Source: Cupriavidus basilensis
GTDB taxonomy: Bacteria; Pseudomonadota; Gammaproteobacteria; Burkholderiales; Burkholderiaceae
Reading direction: 5' to 3'
Length of the DNA: 64,000 bases
Assembly: GCF_000832305.1 (NCBI RefSeq)
Contig: NZ_CP010536.1
Span: 2,728,001-2,792,000, forward strand
The notes beneath the pieces were generated by a model. It made no database searches. It saw nothing but the letters and a program-made list of their open reading frames with translations, and was not told the origin of the DNA. The position numbers and the translations under genes were made by a program. The first letter of the stretch is position 1, and each line of letters opens with the position of its first letter. This document shows positions 1 to 17,545 of the stretch, in pieces.

Positions 1-2197
1 GCCCCATCAAAGGCGCTAGCACGCTGCCCATGAAAGCGTTGAACGCAATGAGCTGGCCAACGGTCAGCTCGCGCTGCAGCACCAGGTTCGCACCGACCCA
101 TAGCACCGCGATGGTGGTCGCGGCATTGAGCAACTGGCTGGCCAGCCCAACCAGGATATGGAACGCCTGCGCCCGGTACTGGACCTCCAGCGCCTTGGCG
201 TATTTCTTCTCCCACTTCAGGCGCACCGGACGCTCGATTCCCATGCCCTTGACCGTTTCCACCCCGCCCAGCGCCTCCATCAGGTAGGACCGCGCATCGG
301 TCGTGGTGGTGAACACCTCGCGCGCGAAAGCCTTGACCTTTGGCGTTGCCACGATCGTCAGGATCGCGATCGGGATCACGAAGGCGATCAGCACCAGCGT
401 CATCTTGACGTTGTAAAGGAACATGATGGTGAAGTAGATAAACACCATCAGCAGGTTGAGCGCCGTCGTCACCGTGGACTCGGTCAGGAAGGCGCGGATA
501 GTCTGGTTCTCCTGGAAACGCGCAAAGATGTCGCCCGTCTTGCGCTTGGCAAAGAAGGAAAATGGCAGCGACAAGGTGTGCTTGAAGAAGTGCGACATCA
601 TGGCGAAGTCCATATTGCGCACCATGAAATTGGCGAGATACGCCCGCACCGAACTCATCAGTTGCGAAAACACACTGGAAACGATCAACCCAAGTATCAG
701 CAGGTTCAGCAGGCCCATGTTCTGGTGCACGACCACCCCGTCAAGGATGTTCTGGATGATCAGGGGCGGCACCACGCCCAGCACCTGGATCACGAAGGTC
801 GCCATGAACAGGTGCGCAAGGATCCGTTTGTACGGTGCCAGGTAGCCGATGAAGCGCAGCCAGGGCGAGCGTGCCACCGCCAGTTGCGCCATGCTTTCGC
901 CGGAGGTGAAAAGCAGGCAGGTGCCGCTCCACCCGCGCTCGAACTCCTCCACGCCCATCTTGCGAAAGCCCAGGGCCGGGTCGGCCACCCACACCCAGCG
1001 CTTCGATACACCGTAGACCACCACGTAGTGGTAGCCCTCCCAGTGCACGATGAACGGCAGCTCGAAACCCAGCAGGGAATCATGCGTGCACTGCACGCCG
1101 CGCGTGGTAAAGCCGAGCGACTCGCCGGCGCGCGCCAGGCTGTCCAGCGTGGCGCCCTGCGTGGTCACGTTGGCCAGCTCGCGCAGCTTGCCGAGCGTCA
1201 TGGAGATGCCGTGATGGCGGCAGATCATCGCCAGGCAGGCAGCGCCGCAATCCATCTCCTCGGCCTGCTCGACCAGAGCGAAGCGGCGGATAACGCGTTC
1301 GCCGAACTCCGGCTTCGAGCGCAGATCGAGCATCACCGGATGCTTGCGCCGCTCGGCCATCCGCTTTTGCCGATGCAGTTCCCTGTCGATAAAACGTATG
1401 CGCTCCTCCAGCACCTCGCGCAGCTTGGGATTGCGCTCCAGGATCAGCTGCACGGTCTTCTCCGGAATCACCAGCAGCCGCGCATCCGTGCCGGCGATGG
1501 CCGACGCAATCTGCTCCTGTCGCATCACGCAGGCGCGCTCGCCAAAGATATCGCCCTGGCGCAAGGTCGCCAACGGATACTCGACTCCCTCCTCGGTGCG
1601 CACAATGCGCACTTCGCCCTGGCGCACCACGTACAGGCGGCGATCCTCCCGTGCATCCTGCTTCAGGATTTCCTTGCCGGCGGACACGCGCTTTACCCCC
1701 ACGCTGCGCACGGCCTCCTCCAGCTCACTCTTGTCGAGCTTGCCACGCAGGTCGAACAAGCGGGCGACAAAGCCGCCGGCCGACCCGATCGCCACATAGC
1801 TGGCAACAAAAGCCATCGCCGCCGGATTTTGCGCAATCATGGGTTCGGTCGCACTGCGCGGAATAAAGAGCAGCTCAGTCTTGGCGGACGAACGCACCGA
1901 GGATTCATGCCGGTACTCGCGCAGCATGGCGATGTCGGCAAACACCTCGCGCGCCTTGCGCACGCCAAGGCTGACTTCCTTGCCATTGTCCTCGTTGAAG
2001 ATGCGCACGGACCCCGACTTGATGATGAAGAGCCCGTCTGCCGCCTCGCCCGCATTGCAGATAGTCTCGCCAAAGCCGTACGAAAGCGCTTGCGCATGCT
2101 CCGCCAGCCGCTCCATTTCCTCGCGCGAGAACGGCGAGAGTATTTCCACGCCAGCCAGGAAGTCGGCGAGCGGATGCAGTTCGGGACTGGCTTGCAT
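1..2197 (-). CDS. Peptidase C39 ABC exporter with twin cyclic-nucleotide-binding domains (3' end outside window)
   Basis: Reading the minus strand from ATG at 2197 gives at least 732 residues without a stop to the window edge. Order: a CRP-type cyclic-nucleotide-binding fold (about 15-125), a second one (about 150-275), a C39 double-glycine peptidase domain (about 300-430), then an ABC exporter membrane domain (about 450 onward); the ATPase domain must lie beyond base 1. The peptidase triad is visible: Cys317 in EEMDCGAACLAM, His390 in HYVVVYG and Asp406 in VADP. Family knowledge: C39 exporters cut leaders after Gly-Gly in the cytoplasm and export the cargo. The gene starts 20 nt after the prolyl isomerase stop, so it is probably the last or near-last gene of the export operon. 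The double nucleotide-binding N-terminus recalls cyanobacterial HetC-like exporters. Inferred cargo: the Gly-Gly peptides at 8952-17465. Confidence 0.93.
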   Translation of the reverse strand, partial: MQASPELHPLADFLAGVEILSPFSREEMERLAEHAQALSYGFGETICNAGEAADGLFIIKSGSVRIFNEDNGKEVSLGVRKAREVFADIAMLREYRHESSVRSSAKTELLFIPRSATEPMIAQNPAAMAFVASYVAIGSAGGFVARLFDLRGKLDKSELEEAVRSVGVKRVSAGKEILKQDAREDRRLYVVRQGEVRIVRTEEGVEYPLATLRQGDIFGERACVMRQEQIASAIAGTDARLLVIPEKTVQLILERNPKLREVLEERIRFIDRELHRQKRMAERRKHPVMLDLRSKPEFGERVIRRFALVEQAEEMDCGAACLAMICRHHGISMTLGKLRELANVTTQGATLDSLARAGESLGFTTRGVQCTHDSLLGFELPFIVHWEGYHYVVVYGVSKRWVWVADPALGFRKMGVEEFERGWSGTCLLFTSGESMAQLAVARSPWLRFIGYLAPYKRILAHLFMATFVIQVLGVVPPLIIQNILDGVVVHQNMGLLNLLILGLIVSSVFSQLMSSVRAYLANFMVRNMDFAMMSHFFKHTLSLPFSFFAKRKTGDIFARFQENQTIRAFLTESTVTTALNLLMVFIYFTIMFLYNVKMTLVLIAFVIPIAILTIVATPKVKAFAREVFTTTTDARSYLMEALGGVETVKGMGIERPVRLKWEKKYAKALEVQYRAQAFHILVGLASQLLNAATTIAVLWVGANLVLQRELTVGQLIAFNAFMGSVLAPLMG

Positions 2198-2217
2198 ATG
2201 CGTCTGGGCGCTAGCGG

Positions 2218-2970
2218 CTAGCGCGCTTCGATGACGTGTTCCTGCGCCCTGGCCATCAGCCAGTCTTCACGCAGGAGCCGGCGCACCTCCGCCGCCACAT
2301 CGGCATCGAGCGTGGCGGGATGCTTGGCGCTCACCATGAAGATCTCGAAGAAGGAGCGGTCCTGGGACGGGAACGGACCAAGCAGGTCGCCGGTGGCGGC
2401 GTTGAACACCTTGGCTTCGATATCCGTCTTCAGCGAGCCGCGCAAGACCTTGCCGATCGCGCCGCCCTGCTCCTTCGTGTCCGCGATGGAGTGCTCGCGC
2501 GCCATCTCGGCAAAGCTGTCGGGATCGTCCCGCAGGTAGGAGATCAGCTCCTTTGCCTTGCCCTCGGCGTCTACCACGATATGGCTCACCTCGATGCTGT
2601 CGAACTTCGGCGAGTGCAGCTTGAAGTAGGCCTCGACCGCCTTGTCGCTGGCCACCTCGGCAAGCATCTTTTCCTGGTAGAGACTATCGGTTACGAACGA
2701 CTCGAACTCGTCCAGGCTCACACCGAGCACATCGAGGTAATGGTTCATCTGCGTCGCCCGGTGCAAGCCCTGCACGCGCCGGAACTGATCGGCGCGTTCC
2801 TGGATATCCTCGGGCGACACGGTGATGCCATGCTTCTTCGCCGCGTGCACCGTGAGCTTGTCCCTGACAATCTGCTCGACCAGCCCTTCGAATTGGCCCG
2901 TGAGCTTCAAGACCCGGATGAACTCCTCGACCCCGATGACTTCATCGTCGACCCGCACAATCGCTGTCAT
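2218..2970 (-). CDS. Parvulin-type peptidyl-prolyl isomerase of the export operon
   Basis: 250 residues from ATG at 2970, chosen because AAGGAG sits 9 nt upstream; a longer reading frame to 3120 has no such signal. The N-terminal half is helical and SurA/PrsA-like. The C-terminal half carries a parvulin domain (about 140-230) with SHIVV and the GGAIGKVLRG motif. There is no signal peptide or membrane segment, so unlike SurA or PpiD it probably works in the cytoplasm, perhaps keeping precursor peptides exportable or acting on the exporter. It lies between the HlyD-type adaptor (109 nt) and the C39 ABC exporter (20 nt). Parvulins beside C39 exporters with cyclic-nucleotide domains also occur in cyanobacteria, as far as I recall. 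Confidence 0.85.
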   Translation of the reverse strand: MTAIVRVDDEVIGVEEFIRVLKLTGQFEGLVEQIVRDKLTVHAAKKHGITVSPEDIQERADQFRRVQGLHRATQMNHYLDVLGVSLDEFESFVTDSLYQEKMLAEVASDKAVEAYFKLHSPKFDSIEVSHIVVDAEGKAKELISYLRDDPDSFAEMAREHSIADTKEQGGAIGKVLRGSLKTDIEAKVFNAATGDLLGPFPSQDRSFFEIFMVSAKHPATLDADVAAEVRRLLREDWLMARAQEHVIEAR

Positions 2971-3079
2971 CTCGTCAGCTCCTTGATTGTTTCCCATTCG
3001 CCAAAATCCACCCGCACACAGGTGCGGGCCGCCGATGCGTCTCCAACTACCTTCCAAGCGTCGCCGCCATCCGCTGGCT

Positions 3080-4462
3080 TCAGCCCGCCACCTGCCGGAA
3101 CGGATCCAGCCCCAGGTCAATCAGGCGCCGCTCGCGCACCACGATTTCCGCCGTCGCGGTCATGCCGTAGCGCAGCGGGTATTTGTTGTCCGCCACCGTG
3201 TAGTAGTCTTGCGCCAGCCGGACGCGCCCCTCGTACACCGGCTGCTTGTTCGGCCCCGCCAGCTTGGTCGCTGGCGAGATGTACTCGAGCGTGCCGGCAA
3301 TCAAGCCATAGCGCTGGTAGGGAAAAGCGTTGAATTTCAGCTTGACGGGCAAGCCCTCGCGCAGGAAGGCGCGATCACGCTCGGCAATCTCGATCTTGAG
3401 CACGGGGCGTGCATTCTTTGGCGCGATGCCGCCCAATGGCGCATTGGCCAGGACCTTGTCACCGCGCTGCGTGGAGCTGACATCGGTGATCACGCCCGCC
3501 ACGGGCGCCAGGATCAGCAGGAAGTTGTCCTTGTCGATATTCTCGAAACGGATGCGCGCCGCCGCCTCGGCAACCAGCCGCGCGGTCTGCACCTGCAGGC
3601 GCAGCTTGTCTTCCGTATTGGCCATCTCGCGCAGCGCGGCGTCGTACTGGATGCGCAGGTTGGTCAACTCCTGGCTGCTGCCTTCGAGCTGCACGGTAGC
3701 CTGGTTGAATTCCTGGCTCAGCTTGGAATCCAGTTCGGCCAGCCGCGACTGGGCAATCTGCAGCGCGTTCTCCGCCTCGACAGCCGCAATCCGCTTGCCC
3801 TCCACCTGTGACTGCGAGACCCCGCCGCCGCCCGGCAGCGCAAACAAGCGGGCATAGCGGTCCTGCTCCTGGCGCGCGAATTCACGCGTCCGACGTGCGC
3901 TGTCCAGGTTGCTGCGCGCCTGCTGCAATTGTGCCCGCTGTTGTTCCGCGAGCCGGGTCGTGCCCTCCGCCGTGCGATTCTCGTGCAGGCGTTCCGCCAC
4001 ATCGATCTGCTGCTTCAACGCTGCCGCCTTGCGCTCCATCAACAGCTTCTTGTCGGGAAACTGCTTCCACTCCCGCTCGGAATCCTGCAGCTTGAGCTGC
4101 GCCTCCAGCGCATTGGTGGCGGCCTCGATCGCACCACGCGCATTCAGGCGCGCCAGCACGTCGTCCTTGTTCACCGGCTGGCCCTCGGCCACATAGAGAT
4201 CCGCCAGCTCCCCGTCCACCGGCGCATAGAACCGCCGCACTTCGGACTCCGGGGCAAGGGTGCCGTCCGCGGACACGATCACATCCGCATGGCCCACGAA
4301 CGACCAGACCAGTGCACAGACGACCAGCGACACCATGACCAGCACGGAGATCTGCATCAGTTTCCAGGGCTCCGCGCTGAGAATGGCGATGCCCTCAGCA
4401 CTGTGGTCCTCAAGCGCCTCGGACAGCGGCTTAAGGCGATTGTCTCGGCTGTCGTCCTTCAT
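3080..4462 (-). CDS. HlyD-family periplasmic adaptor (membrane fusion protein)
   Basis: 460 residues. ATG at 4462 is preceded by a strong GGAGGGGAGGGTG ribosome site; an in-frame TTG at 4477 lies upstream of that site and is rejected. One membrane segment at about 37-56, a biotinyl-lipoyl-like region (about 75-105), a long Gln/Ala/Arg-rich coiled-coil hairpin (about 115-290), the second lipoyl half (LAPVAGVITDVSS) and a C-terminal beta-barrel region ending in an HlyD-like TATAEIVVRERRLIDL tail. The gene overlaps the FHA gene by 32 nt, so the two are translationally coupled. It would link the C39 ABC exporter to the TolC-like protein encoded upstream. Confidence 0.92.
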   Translation of the reverse strand: MKDDSRDNRLKPLSEALEDHSAEGIAILSAEPWKLMQISVLVMVSLVVCALVWSFVGHADVIVSADGTLAPESEVRRFYAPVDGELADLYVAEGQPVNKDDVLARLNARGAIEAATNALEAQLKLQDSEREWKQFPDKKLLMERKAAALKQQIDVAERLHENRTAEGTTRLAEQQRAQLQQARSNLDSARRTREFARQEQDRYARLFALPGGGGVSQSQVEGKRIAAVEAENALQIAQSRLAELDSKLSQEFNQATVQLEGSSQELTNLRIQYDAALREMANTEDKLRLQVQTARLVAEAAARIRFENIDKDNFLLILAPVAGVITDVSSTQRGDKVLANAPLGGIAPKNARPVLKIEIAERDRAFLREGLPVKLKFNAFPYQRYGLIAGTLEYISPATKLAGPNKQPVYEGRVRLAQDYYTVADNKYPLRYGMTATAEIVVRERRLIDLGLDPFRQVAG

Positions 4463-7028
4463 CACCCTCCCCTCCAATCAATGCCAGCTTGGACTTGAGC
4501 AGCGCAGGGCTCAGCACCATGCGCAATTCCTGCAGGGAACGCCGCTGCAGCTCCGTCTCCGAATCGATATCCTCCCGGACCTGGCTCCATTGCGCCGTAT
4601 CGCCTACCTTCAACTGCGCGTAGATGCGCATGCCCTGGCGCGCCTGCGCGCTGGCGTTGGACAGCAGGCGTGCCTGCGCGCGGAACTTGGCGGAGATATC
4701 GGACTCCAGCCGCTGCTCGCCGCCGATGGCGCCATCGCGGCGATACTGGCGCCACGACGCAAGCGCGGCGTTCATCAGTTCCTGCGCACGCCGGATCGCC
4801 GCATCGTGTATCGCCGCCACATCAGGCTCGACAGCATGTAGGAAATAGACATCCTCGACGGGATCGAGCATGGCGTAGAACGACAGCAAGTCGTCCTCAT
4901 AGCCCTTGCCGCCGTGCGCCTTCTGCAACTCGGCAAACTGCGCGGCGACGGCCTGCTTGCGCGCAAGGTCCTTGGCCGCGGCCTCGGCCCACGGCCCCGT
5001 CTTTATCGCTTGCAGCCCGGCGAACGCCTTGGCGCTGTCCCCTGCGCGCCAGGCCTTGTCCACCTCGGCGTACTGCCGCACCAGTTCCGGCGTCGGCAAG
5101 CGGCTGGCTGCCAATTCGCGAAAGCGCGCCTGGAAGGGCGGCGTGGAAAAGCTGACCTTGGCCATCTGGGCCATCAGCGGGCCTAGCGTGGCTGCGCGCG
5201 CCGCGCCGTCCAGCGCAATGTACTGCTGCAGGTCTTCCTTGATGCGATCCATGCCGGCGAGCCTTGGATACTTCTCCGCGTAGTCCGCCAGCACGGCCTG
5301 CAGCGCTTCAGGATGCTCGCTCGCCAACCCGGTGGCCAGCGACGCATTCAAGCGGTCGATGGCTGCCAGATAGACCGAGTCGTCGCTCTGCAGCTTGCGC
5401 ACATAGCTGAGCGCATCGGCATAGGGCTCCCTGAATTGCGGCACATAGGCGGCAATGCGGTCCAGCGCGCGCTGGTGCGCGGGCGTGTCGTCATTCCAGT
5501 GCTTGAGCAGCGCACGCATGCCCGCTTCATCGGTGAAGATGCGGATCGGCGCATCCACGCCGCCCCGGCCGGCCACGAAGCGGTTCAGCCGGCCGATCCA
5601 GTCGAGTTCATCCAGCACGCCGCGCGCGTCGGCATTGTGCGCACCGAGCGTCTTCATATGCGCAAGCGCCGTTTCGGCGCCATTGAAGTCGCGCGCCTGC
5701 AGCTTGCCGATCCATCCCGGCACCTGGTCGCGCAGCAGCGCCTCGGTACCCATCGCGCGGAACTGCGCATGATCCGGGTGGCGCTCCAGATACGCGCCGG
5801 CCACGGCAGCGGCGCGGGCATAGTCGCCGCCGGCCATCAAGGACCGCATCTCGCGCTCGGGCGCGCCGCGCAAGTACAGGAAGAGCAGCAACGCCACGAC
5901 CGCCACGGCAACGGCACCGCCCCAGCGCGCCGCGCGCTTCAGGCCAGCGCGCTCCGAAGCGCCAAAGCTGCTGCCTAGCCTGCCCATGACCAGCGCGAAC
6001 TTGCCCTGCGCGCGCGGCTTGTCCGTCGCGCCGCCGTCGCCTTCCGGCTGGGGCAATGCCTCCTGATTGACCTCATCCTCCTGCTGGGCGGCATAGTCGA
6101 CGCAGAAAATATCCAGGAAGGAGCCAGCCGCGGCGACAAACGTGGTCTTATCGGGATCGTGCGCCGGCGTGCCGGGTGTTGGCGCTGCGGCGGGTGCCGG
6201 AGCCGACGGGGCCGACGGGGCAGAGAGAGGAGCCGCCTGGTCCCGGGCAGGCAATTCGGCGGCATCGCACGGCGGCAGGATCGCGCTGGTGAGGGTTGCC
6301 TCGGCGGCGGCCCCGTTGCATATGCCAACCCGATAGACAAAATGATTGCCACCAAACGCAAGAAGGTCGCTCTCGCCGAGTGCGACCGCATGCTCATCTA
6401 CCCGCTTGCCGTTGACGAAGGTCCCGTTGGTACTGCCAAGGTCTTCGACAAATGGATCGTTCCCTCTCAGGAAGATGTGCGCATGGCGGCGCGAGACATA
6501 GTTGACCTGGTGCGGATACTTCTCCTTGTAACGGGAGAAAGACGCATCCGCCTTGCTGATCAGGAAGGGGAAGCCAGCCACCTCAATCGGCTGCAGCCCA
6601 AGATCGTCGCGCTCGGGCACGAGCGTCAGCACTATCGGCGCCCGGCTTGCCGCCTGGACCGGCGCGCGAGCGCGTAGCCGCACCAGGTAGGACAGCGCCG
6701 TGCCGAAGCGCAGTTCATCGCCATCGCGCAGCCTGGCCGGCTGCTGTGCCACGGCCGCGCCATTGACGGTGGTGCCGTTCTTGCTGCCCAGGTCAGCGAT
6801 ATAGACCGCGCCATGCTCGGAGAAGATGCGCGCATGACGGCGCGAGAGCACTGCGGCCGTATCGGGCGGGTATGCAGCGAAAGGCGCTTCCGCGCGGCCT
6901 ACGGCGAACAGGCTCTCGTCGATGCGGATCTCGCCGAGCTCAGGGTCGGAGATGGGCTCGAGCACGATATCGAACGCCTGCCCCACCTTCGCCCGCATCT
7001 CGACAATCAGAGCTTCGTCTGGAGCCAT
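4431..7028 (-). CDS. Double-FHA-domain inner-membrane protein
   Basis: 865 residues from ATG at 7028. FHA1 spans about 40-118 with GR, SRRHA and SKNGT motifs; FHA2 spans about 150-235 with SRRHAHIF and STNGTFVNG. FHA2 has Lys where the phosphothreonine-contacting Arg of the GR motif normally sits. A Pro/Ala-rich linker (about 255-295) leads to one membrane helix (about 370-387), followed by roughly 475 residues, helical and repeat-like, that I do not recognise and that should be periplasmic. FHA domains bind phosphothreonine, so the Ser/Thr kinase at 13615-15696 is the obvious candidate partner (inference). It overlaps the HlyD gene and lies 216 nt after the TolC-like gene, which points to control of export by phosphorylation. 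Confidence 0.88.
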   Translation of the reverse strand: MAPDEALIVEMRAKVGQAFDIVLEPISDPELGEIRIDESLFAVGRAEAPFAAYPPDTAAVLSRRHARIFSEHGAVYIADLGSKNGTTVNGAAVAQQPARLRDGDELRFGTALSYLVRLRARAPVQAASRAPIVLTLVPERDDLGLQPIEVAGFPFLISKADASFSRYKEKYPHQVNYVSRRHAHIFLRGNDPFVEDLGSTNGTFVNGKRVDEHAVALGESDLLAFGGNHFVYRVGICNGAAAEATLTSAILPPCDAAELPARDQAAPLSAPSAPSAPAPAAAPTPGTPAHDPDKTTFVAAAGSFLDIFCVDYAAQQEDEVNQEALPQPEGDGGATDKPRAQGKFALVMGRLGSSFGASERAGLKRAARWGGAVAVAVVALLLFLYLRGAPEREMRSLMAGGDYARAAAVAGAYLERHPDHAQFRAMGTEALLRDQVPGWIGKLQARDFNGAETALAHMKTLGAHNADARGVLDELDWIGRLNRFVAGRGGVDAPIRIFTDEAGMRALLKHWNDDTPAHQRALDRIAAYVPQFREPYADALSYVRKLQSDDSVYLAAIDRLNASLATGLASEHPEALQAVLADYAEKYPRLAGMDRIKEDLQQYIALDGAARAATLGPLMAQMAKVSFSTPPFQARFRELAASRLPTPELVRQYAEVDKAWRAGDSAKAFAGLQAIKTGPWAEAAAKDLARKQAVAAQFAELQKAHGGKGYEDDLLSFYAMLDPVEDVYFLHAVEPDVAAIHDAAIRRAQELMNAALASWRQYRRDGAIGGEQRLESDISAKFRAQARLLSNASAQARQGMRIYAQLKVGDTAQWSQVREDIDSETELQRRSLQELRMVLSPALLKSKLALIGGEGDEGRQPRQSP

Positions 7029-8711: not shown

Positions 8712-8905
8712 GATCGCCTCCTGCGAGCGCCGGCGGGGAGAAGAGGCCACGGCGGGCACCGGCCCCCGTCAACCACATCGCCAGCGCCAGTTGCGCCGGG
8801 TCAGTCACGGCCCGGATGCAAAGGAGCCGCGCCATCAACACGCCATGCATGCATTGTGTATCCGCTAGCGGCGCGATCCAACCTGTAAATAGAGGCCCTG
8901 CGGCA

Positions 8906-8945: not shown

Positions 8946-8951
8946 GTGGCT

Positions 8952-9586: not shown

Positions 9587-9844
9587 TTAGTAGATGTTGT
9601 TGGTGGCGTTCTGGGTCGACGTCACGTGGGACTTGATGTCGGCCACGAAGGCGGCGTTGTTGCCGTTCATGTTCACGACGTTCTGGGTCTGGCCAATGAG
9701 CTGCGAGGCGTTGAAGGTCGAGTCGAGCTTGACCGAGCTGAAGACGGGCATGAAGGGCACGAAGCCGCCGCGCACGGCGCGCATGGCGCGGGTGTCGAGT
9801 TCTTCGGTGACCGGCAGGTCCTTGATGGCGAGGGTGGTAGTCAT
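9587..9844 (-). CDS. Double-glycine leader peptide, Asn-rich family (copy 3)
   Basis: 85 residues, ATG at 9844 with AAGGAGAACTGCC upstream; longer in-frame starts to 9952 fall in the leader region and are not needed. The leader has LPVTEELD in place of LSVTEELD and ends RAVRGG (cleavage after residue 27). The mature peptide starts FVPFMPVFSSVKLD. The protein is identical to the one encoded at 16130-16387, because both lie in the arms of the inverted repeat. It is the promoter-proximal gene of the left peptide cluster. Confidence 0.86.
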   Translation of the reverse strand: MTTTLAIKDLPVTEELDTRAMRAVRGGFVPFMPVFSSVKLDSTFNASQLIGQTQNVVNMNGNNAAFVADIKSHVTSTQNATNNIY

Positions 9845-9921: not shown

Positions 9922-9936
9922 GCATGGAGTGTGCCA
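9922..9936 (-). promoter_or_regulatory. Candidate sigma-54 (RpoN) promoter, left peptide cluster
   Basis: On the minus strand the sequence is TGGCACACTCCATGC. It keeps the GG and GC dinucleotides of the -24/-12 consensus (TGGCACR-N4-TTGC) at the right spacing, with one mismatch. It lies 77 nt upstream of the copy 3 start codon and is repeated in the right arm. No activator site was recognised. Confidence 0.45.
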
Positions 9937-10262: not shown

Positions 10263-10703
10263 TTACTTCACGTAGATCGTGATCTTCTTGGAGTAGATCG
10301 GCGGGTTGTGCGGAATGTGCTTGTCGTCGGCCATCAGCAGTTGCAAGGTATGTTTGCCCGGCGGCAGCTCGATCGTGGTCTCCGTCTCGCCGGCGCCGAA
10401 ATGCAGATGGTTGCGGTCGTTTGGGATTTCCTTGTCCATGGGCGGCAGATCGGTATCGATCAGCAGATGATGATGGCCGCTGTTTGGAAATTTCACGCCG
10501 CGCGGCGCGACACCCATGCCGCGCAGCCCGAACCACACCTTGATCGGCTTGCCCGCCGGCAGGACCTGGTTGTTGTTGGGAAAGCCGATGTACAGGTAGG
10601 CATGGGCGGGCGCGGGCGTGGCGTCCGCGATTGCGCTGCTCGGCATGCCACCGATCAGAAGCAGGCTGGCGGCGAGCGCAGCAGCCGGAATGAGCTTACG
10701 CAT
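10263..10703 (-). CDS. DUF4399 secreted protein
   Basis: 146 residues from ATG at 10703. A signal peptide (RKLIPAAALAASLLLIGG... ADATPAPA) precedes a single DUF4399 domain with the conserved core HHHLLIDTDLPPMDKEIP and NDRNHLHFGAGETE, ending in a strand motif (PPIYSKKITIYV). The function of this domain is unknown; the His-rich core could bind metal (inference). It lies 44 nt downstream of a paralogue and both sit inside the inverted repeat, so a role with the peptides or the kinase is suggested by place only. Confidence 0.8.
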   Translation of the reverse strand: MRKLIPAAALAASLLLIGGMPSSAIADATPAPAHAYLYIGFPNNNQVLPAGKPIKVWFGLRGMGVAPRGVKFPNSGHHHLLIDTDLPPMDKEIPNDRNHLHFGAGETETTIELPPGKHTLQLLMADDKHIPHNPPIYSKKITIYVK

Positions 10704-10747
10704 GGACTGTCTCCCGTATCGTGCCGCCGGCAAGGCGGCCCGGGGCC

Positions 10748-11173
10748 TTATCGAACGGTGATGGTGATCTTCCTGGAGTAGATCGGCGGATCGTGGGGCT
10801 TGTGATCCTTGTCGCCGAGCAGCAACTGCAAGGTGTGCTTGCCCGGCGGCAACTCGATCCGCGCCTCGGTCTCGCCAGCGCCGAAGTGCAGGTGGTTCCG
10901 GTCATTCGGAATCTCCTTGTCCATGGGCGGCAGGTCCGTGTCGATCAACAGGTGGTGGTGGCCGACGTTGGCCATGTCGACGCCCTTGGGGGCGATCCCC
11001 ATATTGCGCAGGCCCATGCGCACCCAGAATTTGCCGCCATCGATCACGGCGCCGTCGGGCGGCCAGATGATGTAGACCTCGGCATTGGGTGGGGATGTCG
11101 TGGACAACGAGATCGAAGGCAACGGAGCCAGCAGCGACGCTGCCAATGTGCCTAGCACGGTTCGTCTGTGCAT
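10748..11173 (-). CDS. DUF4399 secreted protein, paralogue
   Basis: 141 residues from ATG at 11173. The N-terminus MHRRTVLGTLAASLLAPLPS looks like a short signal peptide with an RR pair, so Tat export is possible. The rest is DUF4399 and shares long identical stretches with its neighbour (HHHLLIDTDLPP, MDKEIPNDRNHLHFGAGE), so the two genes are a tandem duplication that diverged mainly at the N-terminal strand region. Probably co-transcribed with the downstream copy. Function unknown. Confidence 0.8.
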   Translation of the reverse strand: MHRRTVLGTLAASLLAPLPSISLSTTSPPNAEVYIIWPPDGAVIDGGKFWVRMGLRNMGIAPKGVDMANVGHHHLLIDTDLPPMDKEIPNDRNHLHFGAGETEARIELPPGKHTLQLLLGDKDHKPHDPPIYSRKITITVR

Positions 11174-11595: not shown

Positions 11596-13596
11596 ATGTG
11601 GCGAAAATTCCTTGTCGTGTGCCTGCTCGGGTTGGCTGCGGCCGTGCGCGCCGAAGCCGGCATCGACACGCCAACCCTCCCCCTCCCCCTCCAAGCAACA
11701 AAGCACCCGGCCGCCGCCCCCGCGAGCGCTCCGGGCAGGCGCCTCGCCCTGGTCATCGGCAACGGCGCCTATGTGGACGAGCCACTGCCCAACGCCGCCA
11801 ATGACGCCCGGGCAATGCGCCGCACCTTGGCCGCGCTCGGCTTCGACGTCACGCTCCGCGAGAACCTGGACCGGGAAGGCATGGCGCGCGCGCTTGCCGA
11901 ATTCCAGCAGCGCCTGCAGGCGGGCGGCACGGGGTTGTTCTATTTCGCGGGGCACGGCATCGAGGTCGCGGACACCCCGGTGATGATTCCCGTCGATGCC
12001 GGCAGCCGTGCACCTGGCCGCTTGCTCACCGCGGGCACCGCGCTTGACGCCGTACTGGCCAGCATGTCGGCGCCAAGGCCGGACATGCTTAACGTGGTAA
12101 TCCTCGATAGCTGCCTGGACAACCCCTATCGCGGCAGTGCCGTCAAGCCACCCTCCGCCCCCGCCAACACGCTGATCGCCTATGCCACGGCCCCCGGCGC
12201 CGTGGCGGCCGAGGGGGCGCGGCACGGTGCGTTCACCGCCGCCTTACTGCGTACGATGCGCATGCCCGGCCTTGATGCCGAGGCCGCCCTGCTCCGGGCT
12301 GGTGAAATCGTGAGCCAGAATACCGGGCGGCGGCAGCAACCGTGGATATCATCGTCTTTACCCGCCCCGCTCCGGTTCGCGGCAAACACTGCGGCCTCCA
12401 GCGAAAAGGACAACGACAACGCAGCCTTCACGCCCGCACGAAGTCAAGCCGATCCGCCGATCCTTGCGCAGCATCGCGGCATCCTTCCCAAGGACAGCGA
12501 CGAGCAGTACGAGCTCAGCTTCTGGGACTCCATCAAGAACAGCAATTTCGCAAGTGACTACGAGGCCTACCTTAAGGCCTATCCGAACGGCCGCTTCGCG
12601 CCGCTGGCGCGCGCCAGGATCGAGCGGCTGCGCGCGGCCGGGCCGCAGGCCGGGGCGCCTGCGGAGCGTGCTCGCACGCCAGGCGCCTCAGCCGGGCAAG
12701 CCACCGCGCAAGGCGCCGTCACGCCGCCGCCCGCGCGCGCGCAGTCCGGCAAGGTGCAGGCGCCGCCCGCCGCGCCGTCACCAACCGCGCCTGCCGCATC
12801 CGCGCCGCCCGCCCCGACCGCGAGCGTACCCACCACGCAACGAACTGCCGCGGCCGGCGCCGTGATAGTCGAGATCAAGCCAGTCGAGGTCAAGGACTGC
12901 CCGGGCTGTCCCGTGCTGCACAGCCTGCCGGCGGGCAGCTTCATCATGGGCAGCAACGGCGGTGACCCGACCGAGAAGCCGCCGCATCACGTCACCATCG
13001 GCCAGCCCTTCGCGATCGGCAAGTACGAAGTCACGGTGGAACAATGGGGGGCCTGCGCTGATGCGGGGGCATGCCAGCGCATCGCCACCGTCGCCAACGC
13101 GCCGAGGAACGCCCCCGTGCGCGATGTGAGCTGGGACGATGCCCAGCAGTACGTCGCCTGGCTGAGCAAGGTCAGCGGCAAGCACTACCGCCTGCCAACC
13201 GAAGCCGAGTGGGAGTACGCCGCCCGGGGCGGCACCGCGACACTCTACTGGTGGGGCGACCAGATGCGCAAAGGCACGGCCAACTGCAAGGACTGCGGCG
13301 AACCGTGGAATGCCGACGCGCCCGCCAACGTCGGCTCCTTTGCCGCCAATGGCTACGGCCTCCACGACATGAACGGCAGCGTGTGGGAATGGGTCGCCGA
13401 CTGCTGGCACATCTCCTACAAGAACGCGCCTGCCGACGGACGCGCCTGGGACGAGCCCGGCTGCGGCGTGCGCGTGATCCGTGGCGGCTCATGGCGTGAA
13501 GGCGCGAGCTACATGCTCTCCTCCACCCGCTTCAAGTACAGCGCGAGCGTACGCCAGTCGCAAAACGGCTTTCGCGTCGTGCGGGACCTGAAGTAG
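11596..13596 (+). CDS. Secreted caspase-like protease fused to an FGE-sulfatase (SUMF1) domain
   Basis: 666 residues from ATG at 11596, chosen because it opens a signal peptide (MWRKFLVVCLLGLAAAVRA) and has AAGG upstream; in-frame codons back to 11449 do not fit. The caspase domain (about 48-250) keeps the catalytic dyad: His120 in YFAGHG and Cys173 in ILDSCLDNPY. A short helical repeat (about 300-350) and a Pro/Ala-rich linker (about 355-430) lead to an FGE-sulfatase domain (about 440-664) with LPTEAEWEYAARGG, DMNGSVWEW and GGSWREG. Such domains often act as binding or oxidising modules; an active formylglycine activity is not shown. The protein should be periplasmic and might process exported peptides or proteins (inference). 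It converges on the kinase gene with an 18-nt gap. Confidence 0.88.
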   Translation: MWRKFLVVCLLGLAAAVRAEAGIDTPTLPLPLQATKHPAAAPASAPGRRLALVIGNGAYVDEPLPNAANDARAMRRTLAALGFDVTLRENLDREGMARALAEFQQRLQAGGTGLFYFAGHGIEVADTPVMIPVDAGSRAPGRLLTAGTALDAVLASMSAPRPDMLNVVILDSCLDNPYRGSAVKPPSAPANTLIAYATAPGAVAAEGARHGAFTAALLRTMRMPGLDAEAALLRAGEIVSQNTGRRQQPWISSSLPAPLRFAANTAASSEKDNDNAAFTPARSQADPPILAQHRGILPKDSDEQYELSFWDSIKNSNFASDYEAYLKAYPNGRFAPLARARIERLRAAGPQAGAPAERARTPGASAGQATAQGAVTPPPARAQSGKVQAPPAAPSPTAPAASAPPAPTASVPTTQRTAAAGAVIVEIKPVEVKDCPGCPVLHSLPAGSFIMGSNGGDPTEKPPHHVTIGQPFAIGKYEVTVEQWGACADAGACQRIATVANAPRNAPVRDVSWDDAQQYVAWLSKVSGKHYRLPTEAEWEYAARGGTATLYWWGDQMRKGTANCKDCGEPWNADAPANVGSFAANGYGLHDMNGSVWEWVADCWHISYKNAPADGRAWDEPGCGVRVIRGGSWREGASYMLSSTRFKYSASVRQSQNGFRVVRDLK

Positions 13597-13614: not shown

Positions 13615-15696
13615 CTAGCGCGGGTTGGTGGATATCTGCACCATGTCGGCACCGATGTGGCTTTCTCCGTGCTTCGCCGCCATCGGGCCCAGCTGCCTGT
13701 CGAGCGCGCGCAGGTAGTCCTGCCTGGACTCCGACTCGGGGCGCAACGCGTCGAACAGGGCCGCAGGCGTAGTGATCAGCACGATCAGCTCCGTGCCGAA
13801 CGGCTTCGAGATCACCCAGTCCCCGAGGCTGCCCACGGCAGCGGTGTAGCTGGCGGGTGCCTGGTTGGCCTTGGCGCGCTGGCTTGGCACCATATGCACG
13901 ACCTTGCCATCGGCCATGTAGTAGTCGACGTAGACATAGGTGTCGTAAGGCGGCGTGGTGATATCCACGATCAGTGGCGTTCCCTCCGTGAGTTGCGCGC
14001 CGGGCGCCCGGGTGCGGATCGTGGTCAGCGCGGTTGCGCTGCGGCGCCCCGACCAGTAAGGCGAGATCAGCTTGACCACGTCGCACTTGTCATCACCCAG
14101 CGCCTGCACGTCCAGGTTCAGCGTCTGCACGCCGGGCACCGCGCTCAGCTCCTCTTTCAGGCGCTTGATGCCAAAGCGCTCCGCCACGTAGCCACGCACC
14201 TGAAGTGCGTGGTCCTGCCCGGTGGCCGACAGCAGCGAGCAAGGCGCGCGTGCCAGCACCGGCGTCACGGCCTGCATGGAGAGCGCGCGCTCGCGCCGGG
14301 CTTCCTCGCTCGGTTGCGCCGACGGCGGCGCCCCCGGCGTGGCGGATGGCGTCACTGCGGCTTGGGGGGGGGCCGATACCACCGCGCTTGACGCGGATTG
14401 CGCCGCAGGCTGCTGCCCCTCCTGCGTGGTGCGCGCGCGCCACACGTAGTAACCCAGCCCGCCGGCCAGCAGCACGCCGGCCACGGACGCGGCGCCCAGC
14501 TTGGCCATTGGCATGCCACCGTGGCGCTCGGTGCCCATGTCGGCCAGGAAACGCGCCACGGTAGGCGTGCGTGTCGCGCGATCGAAAGACAGCGCCGCGC
14601 GCAGTGCGCGCCACTGCCCGCGGCTGAGCACCTTGGGGCGCTGTGGCTTGAGGCCGGCGCCGCGCGCCTGGTTGGCCGACAGCCGCTCATAGGGGTGCCT
14701 TCCAGTCAGCAGTTCATAGGTCACGCAGGCCAGCGCGTAGATGTCGTCGCGCGGATCCGGCTCGCGATGCTCGAACATCTCGGGGCTGGCATAGGCGGGG
14801 GTCATGCCGCCGAGCGTGCCGGGGTCGAACACGGTCGGGTCCGCGTCGTCCGCCGGTTGCTGGAAAACGCGCGCGATGCCGAAATCGATCACCTTCACTT
14901 CGCCGCTATCGGTGAGGAAGACATTGGCGGGCTTGAAGTCGCAGTGGACAAAGCCGCGCTCGTGCGCATAGGACAAGGCCCGGCCCATGCCGGTGATGAT
15001 CGGCAGCGCCTTGGCGTAAGGCATGCCGGCGAAGTCTGGCGCGCGCAAGACACGATTGAGCGACTTGCCCGACAGGTACTCCATGGTCAGGTAAACCACC
15101 GAGCCATCGCGGTCGAAGTCATAGACCGTCACGATGTTGCGGTGCGCCAGCGTCTGCGCCTTGCGCGCCTCGCGCTGCAGCGCGATCAGCGATTTCGGAT
15201 GACCGCGGAACTGCACATTGAGGACCTTGATGGCGATGTACGGCTTGCGGTCCGAGGCCTCGAGCTTGCGCAGGTCGAGCGCCTTGTAGACCGTCCCCAT
15301 GCCGCCCACGCCCAGGCACTCCTCCAGCACGAAGCGGCCATTCAAGGTATCGCCCACCCCTTTGGTCTGCTCCGCCCCGCCAATCGCCTGATCGCTCGCG
15401 GGCGCTTGCGATGGCAAGGAAGGCGCGGACGCCATGCCGGCGCGGCCAGTCTGCACGCGGGTTTCCTCGCCGCCATCCTCGAACTGGGTTGCCCCGCGGC
15501 GCTCGATGCGCCGCAACACCTCTTCATAAACGCCAGGCGGCAGCGGGAAGCGGGTGTTCTCCTCGCTGAGCATGTCCGCTAGCTGCGTGGCGCTTGCCTG
15601 GTCCACGGCCAAGGTGCTGTCGATGCGGGCCAACAGTTCGTCGTGCGACAGACCACCGCTTTGGAAGGTACGTATCAGGTCTGGAATGCTAGGCAT
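13615..15696 (-). CDS. Transmembrane Ser/Thr protein kinase with DUF4384-like periplasmic part
   Basis: 693 residues from ATG at 15696 (MPSIPDLIRTF). The Hanks-type kinase domain (about 120-385) has the G-loop GVGGMG, Lys157 in YIAIKVL, the catalytic motif HCDFKPAN (Asp253), DFG at 271-273 and ASPEM. The usual Arg of HRD is Cys, so it is a non-RD kinase. A membrane helix (about 399-419) precedes a Pro/Ala/Ser linker and a C-terminal domain of the DUF4384 type, expected in the periplasm. It probably senses an envelope signal and phosphorylates Thr residues read by the double-FHA protein at 4431-7028 (inference from gene context). It lies between the inverted-repeat arms. Confidence 0.88.
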   Translation of the reverse strand: MPSIPDLIRTFQSGGLSHDELLARIDSTLAVDQASATQLADMLSEENTRFPLPPGVYEEVLRRIERRGATQFEDGGEETRVQTGRAGMASAPSLPSQAPASDQAIGGAEQTKGVGDTLNGRFVLEECLGVGGMGTVYKALDLRKLEASDRKPYIAIKVLNVQFRGHPKSLIALQREARKAQTLAHRNIVTVYDFDRDGSVVYLTMEYLSGKSLNRVLRAPDFAGMPYAKALPIITGMGRALSYAHERGFVHCDFKPANVFLTDSGEVKVIDFGIARVFQQPADDADPTVFDPGTLGGMTPAYASPEMFEHREPDPRDDIYALACVTYELLTGRHPYERLSANQARGAGLKPQRPKVLSRGQWRALRAALSFDRATRTPTVARFLADMGTERHGGMPMAKLGAASVAGVLLAGGLGYYVWRARTTQEGQQPAAQSASSAVVSAPPQAAVTPSATPGAPPSAQPSEEARRERALSMQAVTPVLARAPCSLLSATGQDHALQVRGYVAERFGIKRLKEELSAVPGVQTLNLDVQALGDDKCDVVKLISPYWSGRRSATALTTIRTRAPGAQLTEGTPLIVDITTPPYDTYVYVDYYMADGKVVHMVPSQRAKANQAPASYTAAVGSLGDWVISKPFGTELIVLITTPAALFDALRPESESRQDYLRALDRQLGPMAAKHGESHIGADMVQISTNPR

Positions 15697-15904
15697 CGAT
15701 GCAGCCACGACGTGATTGCGCGAAGTTGCGCATTGAGCGCCCACTCGCCCGTCTACAGCGAGTACCTGCCCACGATGGATACTAGTGCGCACTCACGCCA
15801 ATCGCAAACCCCTCGTGCTTTGCATCAACGCCGGCAAGCCACGCCAGCGGCACGATGGCGCCGCAAGAGCCACTACCTGTCGCACATGCGCGAACACCCT
15901 GTGT
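15697..15904. other. Spacer between kinase gene and right inverted-repeat arm
   Basis: 208 nt that should hold the kinase promoter (minus strand). No gene or clear promoter hexamers seen; repeat homology begins at 15905. Confidence 0.4.
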
Positions 15905-16037: not shown

Positions 16038-16052
16038 TGGCACACTCCATGC
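16038..16052 (+). promoter_or_regulatory. Candidate sigma-54 (RpoN) promoter, right peptide cluster
   Basis: TGGCACACTCCATGC, the same element as in the left arm, with GG at 16039-16040 and GC at 16051-16052. Transcription would start near 16064, about 66 nt before the copy 4 start codon. Confidence 0.45.
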
Positions 16053-16129: not shown

Positions 16130-16387
16130 ATGACTACCACCCTCGCCATCAAGGACCTGCCGGTCACCGAAGAACTCGACACCCGCGCCATGCGCGCCGT
16201 GCGCGGCGGCTTCGTGCCCTTCATGCCCGTCTTCAGCTCGGTCAAGCTCGACTCGACCTTCAACGCCTCGCAGCTCATTGGCCAGACCCAGAACGTCGTG
16301 AACATGAACGGCAACAACGCCGCCTTCGTGGCCGACATCAAGTCCCACGTGACGTCGACCCAGAACGCCACCAACAACATCTACTAA
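16130..16387 (+). CDS. Double-glycine leader peptide, Asn-rich family (copy 4)
   Basis: 85 residues, protein identical to copy 3 at 9587-9844. Leader of 27 residues ending RAMRAVRGG; mature peptide of 58 residues starting FVPFMPVFSSVKLD and ending NATNNIY, no Cys. ATG at 16130 follows AAGGAGAACTGCC. First gene of the right peptide cluster; copy 5 follows after 58 nt. Confidence 0.86.
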   Translation: MTTTLAIKDLPVTEELDTRAMRAVRGGFVPFMPVFSSVKLDSTFNASQLIGQTQNVVNMNGNNAAFVADIKSHVTSTQNATNNIY

Positions 16388-16445
16388 GCCGCGGGCCACG
16401 CCCCAAGCCGAATTCGCAATCCACTGAATACCCCGGAGAACTGCC

Positions 16446-16703
16446 ATGACTACCACCCTCGCCATCAAGGACCTGTCCGTCACCGAAGAACTCGACACCC
16501 GCGCCATGCGCGCCGTGCGCGGCGGCTTCGTGCCCTTCATGCCTGTCTTCAGCCTGACCAAGATCGACTCGACCTTCAATGCTTCGCAGCTGATCGGCCA
16601 GACCCAGAACGTCGTGAACATGAACGGCAACAACACGGCCTTTGCCGCCGACATCAAGTCCCACGTGACGTCGACCCAGAACGCCACCAACAACATTTAT
16701 TGA
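16446..16703 (+). CDS. Double-glycine leader peptide, Asn-rich family (copy 5)
   Basis: 85 residues; leader as in copy 2 (LSVTEELD ... RAVRGG) and a 58-residue mature peptide differing from copy 2 by one residue (FAADIK). It ends in a TTTATTGA context, unlike the CTACTAA of the other copies, so its last codons mark the outer edge of the repeat. A GC-rich hairpin at 16723-16741 without a U-tract follows, which may only attenuate transcription into the next leader peptide gene. Confidence 0.86.
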   Translation: MTTTLAIKDLSVTEELDTRAMRAVRGGFVPFMPVFSLTKIDSTFNASQLIGQTQNVVNMNGNNTAFAADIKSHVTSTQNATNNIY

Positions 16704-16722
16704 ATGGTCCCGGCACCGGCAA

Positions 16723-16741: not shown

Positions 16742-16803
16742 CGCTGCCAGCCAGTACCCGCCATTTCCAGCAATCAAGTCAAGTGAAGTCTAGGAGAACC
16801 ATC

Positions 16804-17067
16804 ATGTCATCCATCATCGTGCGCGACCTCGCCCTGACCCAAGACCTCGACAGCAAGTCCCTGGCCGCGGTGCGCGGCGGCAATTCCTGGTTGCAAGGAC
16901 TGGGCCCGGTGGCCAACGTCAATGTCAACGTCAACCAGAACATCGCCCAGTTGCAGAGCATCAACGTGAACACGCTCAACAACGTCGGCGTGATCGGCTC
17001 CGGCTTCGGCCCGCTGAGCATCGACGTCAACCCGTCGCAGTGGGCCGCTACCCACGCCGCGGTCTGA
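16804..17067 (+). CDS. Double-glycine leader peptide with different, Asn/Val-rich mature part
   Basis: 87 residues from ATG at 16804, with AGGAGAACC upstream. The leader MSSIIVRDLALTQDLD plus SKSLAAVRGG matches the pattern of the Asn-rich family (I/V-x-K/R-D-L, L-D, A-V-R-G-G), with cleavage after residue 26. The 61-residue mature part is unrelated in detail: alternating NVNVNVNQN, further Asn-Val and Gln repeats, then GSGFGPL, and no Cys. Alternating Asn/Val strands suggest a beta-rich or amyloid-prone peptide (inference). Lies 100 nt after copy 5. Confidence 0.8.
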   Translation: MSSIIVRDLALTQDLDSKSLAAVRGGNSWLQGLGPVANVNVNVNQNIAQLQSINVNTLNNVGVIGSGFGPLSIDVNPSQWAATHAAV

Positions 17068-17246
17068 GCGAGATGCGCCCCGCTCCGTGGAAACCCAAGG
17101 GTTTCCACGGCTGTTGCGCACGAACTGGCACCGCCCCGGAGGTAAAACCCGTGGCCTATACTGATCTGGCCGGGCCTGCCGCATCGCGCGCACCCACCCG
17201 GCGAACCCCGGCCGAGCCGGCCTTCGCCACCCTGCAGGAGGAAGTC

Positions 17247-17465
17247 ATGGCCGTCATCGTCATCAAGGATTTGCCGGACAGCGTGGATCTCGACAGAGAA
17301 GCCATGGTGGCAATCACAGGCGGCGCGAGAACGCGCGCCGGTCATGCATGGACGCAGCGCAAGCTCGGGGGAGCCTTGCGCGTCATCAGCTATCCGGAGG
17401 GCTTTCCAGGCCAACCGCTGGCAGGCACGCAGTCGCGGCCGGCCGGGGACATCAAGCGCAAGTAA
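17247..17465 (+). CDS. Double-glycine leader peptide with basic mature part
   Basis: 72 residues from ATG at 17247 after CAGGAGGAAGTC, an excellent ribosome site. Leader MAVIVIKDLPDSVDLD plus REAMVAITGG (cleavage after residue 26) fits the local consensus, with TGG-type Gly-Gly. The 46-residue mature part is strongly basic (ARTRAGH at the start, DIKRK at the end), has no Cys and no likeness to the Asn-rich peptides, so the exporter may handle several cargo types sharing one leader. Followed by an intrinsic terminator at 17506-17545. Confidence 0.75.
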   Translation: MAVIVIKDLPDSVDLDREAMVAITGGARTRAGHAWTQRKLGGALRVISYPEGFPGQPLAGTQSRPAGDIKRK

Positions 17466-17505
17466 GTCGAATCAGAAGCGCAAGGCAGCGATACTCTGCC
17501 CTCCG

Positions 17506-17545
17506 CGCCCGTTGCCCTGTCGGCAACGGGCGTCAGTGCTTTTGG
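17506..17545 (+). terminator. Intrinsic terminator after the last leader-peptide gene
   Basis: CGCCCGTTGCC (17506-17516) and GGCAACGGGCG (17522-17532) form a perfect 11-bp stem with a 5-nt loop, followed by TCAGTGCTTTT. It closes the right peptide cluster. Confidence 0.75.

Follow-up and report, generated by a model that had tools for sequence, protein, structure and literature searches.

At the left end of the window, by which we mean the whole 64,000-nucleotide stretch of Cupriavidus basilensis DNA analysed here, lies a gene cluster that proved larger than first noted, its left end falling ~3.6 kb outside the window. The core comprises six genes encoding a sigma-54 activator, a C39 ABC exporter with two CNB domains, a PpiC protein, an HlyD adaptor, a membrane protein with two FHA domains and a NodT channel. 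Beside it are encoded DUF4399 proteins, an FGE-fold protein, a transmembrane Ser/Thr kinase and several families of Gly-Gly peptides. The activator gene, a PP2C phosphatase gene and an eighth peptide gene lie to the left of the window; the genes named in the first-pass annotation are all present within it, as assessed by Pfam for the domains and by NCBIfam for NodT.

The exporter gene (1019 aa; 1..2197, minus strand) is truncated by the left edge of the window and extends to about -862; Pfam searches of the full gene recovered cNMP_binding in two stretches, C39 (PF03412), PF00664 and PF00005, giving the order two CNB, C39, TMD and NBD. The minus strand further encodes a PpiC/SurA-like parvulin (2218..2970; Rotamase, E = 5.7e-12), an HlyD-type periplasmic adaptor (3080..4462; HlyD_3 in Pfam), the FHA protein (4431..7028) and a NodT/TolC-type outer-membrane channel (7245..8759; TIGR01845, 315.5 bits against a cut-off of 210.05), the start sites of the first three being predicted positions. 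A left peptide array of three family-A genes (8952..9212, 9271..9528 and its first gene, 9587..9844) stands behind a sigma-54 (-24/-12) promoter-like site at 9922..9936, all on the minus strand, as are two DUF4399 proteins that look exported (10263..10733, PF14347 E = 3.4e-38; 10748..11173, E = 1.3e-37). A caspase (C14) and FGE/SUMF1-fold protein that looks secreted follows on the plus strand (11596..13596, start placed from a signal-like sequence), and the transmembrane Ser/Thr kinase with its DUF4384 domain occupies 13615..15792 on the minus strand (Pkinase, E = 1.2e-39). The right peptide array, on the plus strand, has a second sigma-54 (-24/-12) promoter-like site (16038..16052), a first gene of family A (16130..16387), another of family A (16446..16703), one of family B with a VNVNVN pattern (16804..17067) and one of the cationic family D (17247..17465). 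A 7TM-type histidine kinase gene lies ~2 kb past the outermost peptide gene.

The catalytic C39 residues of the exporter, C317, H390 and D406, are invariant in 13/13 aligned sequences, and the solved chains matching its C39 and ABC parts are HlyB, an ABC-type bacteriocin transporter and ComA. PCAT type I is defined by a C39 domain with Cys, His and Asp fused to an ABC TMD-NBD, which is the architecture found here; the adaptor and outer-membrane channel genes (HlyD, NodT) and the exporter-linked precursors with Gly-Gly leaders that this type requires accompany the exporter gene. Membership in NHLP/NHLM, with which the cluster shares C39-ABC and HlyD components, was rejected because the scores all fell below cut-off (TIGR03796, 552 of 853 bits; TIGR03797, 398 of 709; TIGR03794, 71 of 156). 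The adaptor likewise scored 155 bits against TIGR01843 (cut-off 208.65) and the parvulin 97.8 bits against TIGR04500 (cut-off 180). Several small proteins, EbfG1-4, are exported together in Synechococcus (PMC4997328), as we propose for this cluster. CvaB and the PteB/EbfG system of Synechococcus share with it an intact C39-ABC, HlyD, an outer-membrane channel and Gly-Gly leaders; beyond these, the cluster has two N-terminal CNB domains, the FHA-kinase-phosphatase set, the sigma-54 activator, and DUF4399 and FGE-fold proteins.

The first-pass annotation had supposed that export is gated by cyclic nucleotides. The Glu and Arg of the CNB phosphate-binding cassette mark cAMP- and cGMP-responsive domains, with the Arg binding the ligand. 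Aligned with CNB domains of solved structure, the exporter has His in CNB1 and Gln in CNB2 where this Arg would be, and Asp replaces the Glu in CNB1. With both domains lacking the usual Arg, such gating of the exporter was rejected on the alignments and the earlier claim is left unsupported. HetC of Nostoc also carries a CNB ahead of a C39-ABC exporter, and this CNB is needed in vivo, does not respond to cAMP and binds ppGpp in vitro (PMC10986499). HetC differs from the exporter here in having no membrane-fusion gene nearby, and the excerpts of that source give it a single CNB and mention no FHA or kinase partner.

The signalling parts center on the FHA protein, in which Pfam matched FHA in two stretches, the second with Lys at the canonical Arg position. 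A disordered linker, one TM helix and a large alpha-helical domain complete the protein (Pfam, AlphaFold, Foldseek), and the linker motif D-K-T-T-F (DxTTF) occurs in 77/79 relatives. The top Foldseek matches of the model were FHA structures covering the FHA part; the helical domain gave no clear fold in Foldseek, helical-repeat matches having probabilities <0.5. A DxT motif similar in form to the linker, D-K-T-x-x-N-P, is present in the tail of the PP2C (62/66), itself identified through its sequence motifs. The kinase combines Pkinase and DUF4384 (Pfam), with catalytic motifs invariant in 12/12 aligned sequences. For the counts on the linker, the PP2C tail and the FGE part, proteins were picked by motifs (kinases by the glycine loop and H-[RC]-D), and only features outside those motifs serve as tests. 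A Ser/Thr kinase with a TM segment and an outer domain, a PP2C and an FHA protein are thus all linked to one secretion machine. Together with the conserved D-K-T motifs, these sequences give good grounds to infer that export would be controlled by threonine phosphorylation.

We show that the six core genes are present and colinear in 67/69 complete loci (80 loci minus 11 under 22 kb), with the reservation that the loci counted are not phylogenetically independent and that some genomes appear in both locus sets. In 67 of these loci, the HlyD and NodT genes flank the FHA gene within the exporter operon. Gene order is identical in 20/20 regions taken from among the 28 further Cupriavidus genomes that are FHA-positive, and two distant genomes of the same class have the core six in order. 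Among 36 Cupriavidus genomes, the one studied here included, the FHA protein is found in 29 and the CNB-C39 exporter in the same 29. A peptide query (E up to 0.01) matched in 28 of the 29 carriers (in three through nothing but the leader) and in none of the seven non-carriers (Fisher p = 1e-6), so that the co-occurrence on which the first-pass annotation had staked its reading is borne out. The cluster also occurs in many Paraburkholderia and Caballeronia, as well as in Aromatoleum and Dechloromonas; wider samples are thin, with 3/399 matches order-wide and 3/369 class-wide, our own genome being in both.

The kinase query found no match in 15 complete loci, chiefly of Caballeronia, even though ~4 kb lie past the FGE gene. 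Of the genomes with these kinase-less loci, seven were searched, and all seven encode elsewhere a kinase 54-58% identical, with Gly-Gly peptide genes adjoining the relocated kinase in 4/4 loci scanned. The PP2C query had no match in 7/69 complete loci, and in the two distant genomes the neighbourhood of the core showed no recognisable kinase, PP2C or peptide carrying this leader. Such absences near the core indicate that exporter and signalling parts can be separated. An ordinary C39 exporter operon beside an unrelated phospho-signalling module, their synteny reflecting only an old neighbourhood, would account for these two genomes, for the kinase encoded elsewhere in some Caballeronia and for two Aromatoleum loci whose kinase block is flipped with respect to the core. 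It sits poorly, however, with an FHA gene within the exporter operon, with peptide genes beside the relocated kinase and with identical phyletic patterns of FHA protein and exporter in 36 genomes, and we regard it as quite improbable. Gene order and phyletic pattern exclude chance. Colinearity, matching presence and absence, and the relocated kinase lend strong support to the earlier claim that the genes belong to a single system.

A Ser/Thr kinase, PP2C and FHA protein are known together from the T6SS threonine-phosphorylation pathway (PpkA, PppA, Fha1 and TagR; RtkS or TssW in other species; PMC3224232, PMC6082577, PMC12607579). As far as the excerpts of these sources describe it, the pathway shares with the cluster a TM kinase with a periplasmic domain, a PP2C, an FHA protein, an envelope-side partner and encoding with a secretion machine. 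In contrast, the machine of the cluster is a C39 type I exporter and no contractile injector, its FHA protein combines a pair of FHA domains with a TM helix and a large helical part, and the cluster is also present in genomes that lack a T6SS sheath gene. The types of kinase, phosphatase and FHA protein would also fit a regulator of a T6SS encoded elsewhere in the same genome, and both T6SS regions of C. basilensis (40 kb each) were without such genes (tblastn at 1e-4, motif scan); the VipA genes of this genome are encoded far away from the cluster. Yet the sheath gene (T6SS_VipA) is missing in 8/29 carriers and present in 6/7 non-carriers, a distribution on which we reject this role as the main reading and regard it as highly improbable. 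Another precedent is Rv1747-PknF of Mycobacterium tuberculosis, where two FHA domains and a cognate Ser/Thr kinase positively control an ABC exporter (PMC3908365); unlike here, the FHA domains are within the transporter, and the excerpts of that source leave C39, Gly-Gly peptides and an adaptor unmentioned. The excerpts of PMC3482391 hold no description of this gene set, and no title or opening of an abstract among the literature matches listed from full-text searches, in which subscription journals are largely missing, describes the cluster. It is widely conserved in soil beta-proteobacteria and apparently has no name.

In the FGE-fold protein, Pfam matched Peptidase_C14 and FGE-sulfatase, and the nearest solved chain of the FGE part is PvdO. 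FGE enzymes have an active-site Cys shortly after RGGSW/Y; the FGE part lacks it, and Cys is found in that stretch in 0/71 relatives. With the usual Cys missing in all 71 and the peptides nearly Cys-free, a role as a peptide-modifying enzyme was rejected. TagR is an FGE-fold protein (no paper among the literature matches listed names both TagR and FGE). The caspase half is variable, with no Pfam match in 4/5 Cupriavidus relatives scanned and a query match in 51/69 complete loci, and was rejected as a constant part of the cluster. The FGE and DUF4399 queries matched in 69/69, the two DUF4399 queries cross-matching. A literature search for DUF4399 gave one passage among the excerpts listed, a table entry (PMC12322963).

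Of the small double-glycine genes, seven are within the window, an eighth lies to its left, and two more copies are on the second replicon. Six of the seven leaders in the window end in AVRGG, in agreement with the consensus proposed earlier, and the seventh ends in AITGG, so this consensus was slightly too tight. A cargo mix poor in cysteine is confirmed: the mature part is without Cys in all ten peptides of the genome, and Cys occurs in 11/357 distinct mature sequences across loci (411 peptide gene records, including duplicates between the two locus sets; 2/413 candidates scored below 8). Mature peptides are 60-70 aa, Asn/Gln-rich and present in several copies. Families A to C, neutral to acidic, outnumber family D, which is short and cationic (net about +5.7) with a Tyr-Pro motif by which the class was itself defined. 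Neither NCBIfam nor Pfam gave a match for the family-A peptide, and the 120 peptide relatives listed are 'hypothetical', 'uncharacterized' or without a name, except for one 'STAS domain-containing'. Beta-alternation is strong in family B (z = 14.4), present to some extent in C (4.3) and not seen in A (1.3), and a uniform amyloid cargo is not supported; the AlphaFold model of peptide B is of low confidence (pLDDT 51.5). In 30 aligned family-A sequences, the first 19 mature residues are the most variable, with a mean column entropy of 2.21 vs 0.80 in the leader. The genes are tandemly duplicated, with gaps of 58 to 179 nt in the window.

These features bear on what the cargo does. Gaps of this size leave no space for immunity genes between peptide genes, no dedicated immunity gene was recognised in an unsystematic look at small ORFs (a DUF4399 or LRAT-type protein could serve), and families A to C are not cationic, all of which weakens the case for an antibacterial, microcin- or CDZ-like cargo. 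Such a cargo would make the cluster a multi-peptide weapon whose switch fires on a rival's envelope damage, as TagQRST does for H1 type VI. The variable N-terminus of family A, the tandem copies and the charge of family D are in line with it, C39 exporters often carry bacteriocins (PMC10986499), and the nearest signalling parallel is an antagonism system (PMC3224232, PMC6082577). We consider this reading possible, if rather unlikely.

Peptides could also be signals, with the cluster as the export arm of a communication circuit and the upstream histidine kinase or the Ser/Thr kinase as receiver. Gly-Gly peptides serve as pheromones in Gram-positive bacteria, and this precedent, the short, cationic family D with its class-defining motif and the nearby 7TM-type histidine kinase would suit such a circuit. 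Multi-copy, Asn/Gln-rich peptides of this length are large for signals, however, family D is outnumbered, and the compared regions of relatives end about where the histidine kinase would sit; we find the idea improbable.

Sigma-54 promoter-like sites, absent from the first-pass annotation, mark the starts of the arrays, being found upstream of 119/138 first-in-array genes of family A and 55/79 of family C and of no later array genes (A 0/57, B 0/50, D 0/36) against a background of 51/2045, with a site pattern fixed after an earlier look at sites and with counts that skip genes with <150 nt upstream and repeat records of one gene. The association is looser elsewhere, with a site before 3/12 first D genes and 4/9 first unclassified genes and none before 24/79 first family-C genes.

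Overall, we propose, with a probability of roughly 0.6, that the cluster encodes a sigma-54-induced type I system secreting double-glycine peptides, and that threonine phosphorylation switches its machine in a manner resembling the T6SS pathway. The activator of the cluster would turn on the peptide arrays through the -24/-12 promoter-like sites identified from sequence. Judging from their families, the C39 domain would cut the leader after Gly-Gly, exporter, HlyD and NodT would move the mature peptide out, and the parvulin probably assists. The FHA protein, with its FHA domains predicted in the cytoplasm and its helical domain in the periplasm, might hold the exporter-adaptor complex. The secreted, non-catalytic FGE-fold protein could sense the envelope and activate the membrane kinase, which would phosphorylate the D-K-T-T-F linker, alter FHA contacts and so license export; the PP2C would reset the switch, and the DUF4399 proteins may be periplasmic helpers. 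The weakest step concerns the cargo, which we picture as several peptide families exported together and most likely serving as material of the surface or matrix where cells touch each other or a surface.

More tentatively, the cluster might represent a distinct secretion class: a type I exporter with a dedicated membrane scaffold (FHA-FHA-linker-TM-helical repeat), the scaffold gene being placed between those for adaptor and channel. Threonine phosphorylation, in response to a signal that a non-catalytic FGE-fold protein reads from the envelope, would license the assembly or opening of this machine, and a multi-component peptide mixture would be released on contact or damage. If true, such a class would be to type I secretion what the firing switch is to type VI.

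Type I exporters are usually regarded as constitutive once expressed. Here, a threonine-kinase switch of a type familiar from contact-dependent bacterial weapons, joined to a leader-cutting peptide exporter, suggests that simple exporters can also be under phosphorylation control. The cluster provides >300 different natural substrates with Gly-Gly leaders, as well as a soil-bacterial test system, and if the kinase-phosphatase-FHA set does control the exporter, post-translational firing control would be a portable module and not a type VI invention.

The genes listed in the first-pass annotation were all recovered by ORF reading, Pfam and a peptide-gene scan, and its proposal that they form a single Gly-Gly peptide secretion system is borne out by gene order and phyletic pattern: the cluster is one conserved system. 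The 4.52 Mb contig C1 of an 8.42 Mb, two-contig genome carries the window, whose left edge cuts through the exporter gene. Left of the window (negative positions) lies the gene of a sigma-54 activator, at about -2264 to -882 (sigma-54 AAA+ domain by Pfam). Beyond it come a PP2C phosphatase on the strand opposite to the activator (about -3069 to -2293), recognized by PP2C motifs in the sequence, and then, at about -3466 to -3179, the eighth peptide gene. On the phosphatase side, an LRAT-family protein (L017:5500-6021 of the own-locus stretch, window about -4500 to -3979) has a match in 52 of the 69 complete loci (>22 kb, named genomes) and is therefore perhaps a peripheral member. Further out, a histidine kinase with a 7TM-type N-terminus occupies L017:3312-4760 (window about -6688 to -5240), about where the stretches of relatives end. 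Within the window, a MarR-like regulator, an outer-membrane factor and EmrA-like and EmrB-like genes stand in a row at 24307-29336, which by ORF reading looks like a drug efflux operon.

The two in-window peptide arrays share an 811-base segment in inverted orientation, its copies being 98.8% identical. Two more peptide genes occur on the second replicon, where L019:12747-13369 (contig C2) holds a second pair of family A and family B peptides with its own sigma-54-like site; a C39 search of the own genome returned no match near this pair. Two other C39-peptidase matches on the second contig (G000:C2:61401-61808 and G000:C2:3892344-3892742; L002 and L003) are not full exporters, since their frames span only 289 and 307 aa.

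Of 36 Cupriavidus genomes, this one included, 29 have the double-FHA membrane protein, and exactly these 29 also encode the double-CNB C39 exporter. A family-A peptide query (E up to 0.01) matched 28 of these 29 vs none of the seven FHA-negative genomes, the matches in G007, G028 and G029 spanning the leader only; the sole carrier without a match, G017, has a family-D peptide at its locus (L037). FHA protein and peptide were absent from all 24 searched genomes of other genera, one of which gave weak matches, to C39 domains only. Order and orientation were identical in 20 of 20 fetched same-genus regions. An FHA-protein alignment scan of named genomes found 206 relatives, of which the best 80 were retained, chiefly from Cupriavidus, Paraburkholderia and Caballeronia; the closest match was in Cupriavidus basilensis, and 69 of the retained loci exceeded 22 kb. 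The core six genes (activator, exporter, PpiC, HlyD, FHA protein and NodT) were complete and colinear in 67 of the 69. In the other two, the exporter (81-82% identical) is encoded beyond the stretch examined: on another contig in a Rhodocyclaceae MAG and probably 16-19 kb past the stretch in Noviherbaspirillum, provided that contig C2 there is the locus contig. Matches to FGE and DUF4399 were found in 69/69 complete loci (the two DUF4399 queries cross-match), to PP2C in 62/69 and to the kinase in 53/69. Two distant genomes of the same class also had the core six in order, with no kinase, PP2C or peptide recognized within the fetched stretch. L084, L095, L116 and L124 (from Noviherbaspirillum, Aromatoleum and a Rhodocyclaceae MAG) each have a second FHA match near the locus; the frame that holds it measures 678 aa in L084 and 659 aa in L116.

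The 16 complete loci missing a kinase match include Noviherbaspirillum, where the stretch end cuts the locus and the kinase appears to lie right at that end, again provided that contig C2 is the locus contig. The other 15 have no kinase although ~4 kb follow the FGE gene. A kinase 54-58% identical was found elsewhere in all seven of their genomes searched, on a different contig or >100 kb off in the three checked by position. Gly-Gly peptide genes stood beside the relocated kinase in 4/4 loci scanned, two loci having three such genes and each of the remaining two a single family-D gene.

The C39 catalytic residues were invariant in 13/13 aligned exporters, and solved chains matching the C39 and ABC parts were HlyB, an ABC-type bacteriocin transporter and ComA. 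Both CNB domains align with protein-kinase regulatory domains and carry His or Gln at the ligand-binding Arg position. HetC likewise joins a CNB domain to a C39 exporter and is reported to show no cAMP response and to bind ppGpp with a Kd of 59 uM (PMC10986499). Export gated by cyclic nucleotides, as previously proposed, is thus not supported, and alarmone binding or ligand-free docking is the more likely role of these domains.

Threonine phosphorylation, the other proposed control, likely does act on the export system, judging from sequence. The kinase glycine loop, Lys, HCD-x-K-P-x-N and DFG were kept in 12/12 aligned, and HCD and DFG occurred in all 52 named-genome kinases, themselves selected for having a glycine loop and H-[RC]-D. 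In the first FHA domain the Gly-Arg, Ser-Arg-x-His and Asn-Gly-Thr motifs are canonical; the second has Lys in place of Arg. In the FHA-protein model, residues 257-385 form a linker of low confidence, helix 381-405 is read as the TM segment, and the part that follows, up to 869, is an all-helical domain modelled mostly with confidence. D-K-T-T-F or D-R-T-T-F occurs in the linker in 77/79, and D-K-T-x-x-N-P or a close variant ends the phosphatase in 62/66, with three E-K-T-L-L-N-P and one different end as exceptions; these motifs look like candidate kinase targets or FHA ligands. The usual active-site Cys of the FGE-fold protein was missing in 71/71. The logic proposed for the kinase, PP2C and FHA set comes from the T6SS, in which PpkA reportedly phosphorylates Fha1, PppA reverses this, and periplasmic TagR/RtkS or outer-membrane TssW acts on the kinase (PMC3224232, PMC6082577, PMC12607579, PMC6423157, PMC6657622). 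An ABC exporter on which FHA and kinase act has a reported precedent in Rv1747-PknF (PMC3908365). The cluster is independent of the T6SS itself, because the sheath gene is missing in 8/29 carriers and present in 6/7 non-carriers.

Sigma-54 promoters carry a -24/-12 element of the TGGCAC-N5-TGC type. With a search pattern set only after initial inspection of sites, and in rows that are non-independent (related species, some genomes in both sets), such a site preceded 119/138 first and 0/57 later genes of family A, 3/3 and 0/50 of family B, 55/79 and 0/2 of family C, 3/12 and 0/36 of family D, and 4/9 and 0/23 of unclassified peptides, vs 51 of 2045 random 200-base stretches from the same loci. 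The median distance to the start of the first family-A gene was ~92 nt. In the window, the pattern matches at 9922-9936 (minus strand) and 16038-16052 (plus strand). Beside its sigma-54 AAA+ domain, Pfam detected no receiver or sensor domain in the activator. From its sequence, it is close to certain that the cluster encodes a C39 export system whose peptide genes have sigma-54-type promoters.

The 411 peptide gene records reduce to 357 different mature sequences with a median length of 64 aa; Asn makes up 12.6% and Gln 6.5% of residues, and 11 of the 357 contain Cys. Motif rules assigned 197 to A, 81 to C, 53 to B, 48 to D and 32 to none, roughly, as several B- or D-like peptides fell in A or unclassified and some A-like in B. 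The 30 aligned family-A members have a conserved leader, and their variation is greatest over the first 19 residues of the mature part. A family-A profile search found 682 proteins at E ≤ 0.001, and none of the 120 listed among them had a Pfam domain or an informative name. Against shuffles, and with z values inflated by homology among family members, alternation was strong in B (14.4), weaker in C (4.3), not seen in A (1.3) and below shuffled in D (-1.8), whose peptides are cationic. Other Gly-Gly families, e.g., glycine-rich, adjoin the same exporter at L039:18064-18989, L124:20638-21616 and L128:20632-21472, suggesting that the cargo is exchangeable. As to what the peptides do, we favor surface or matrix material, rank antagonism second, and place signalling third.
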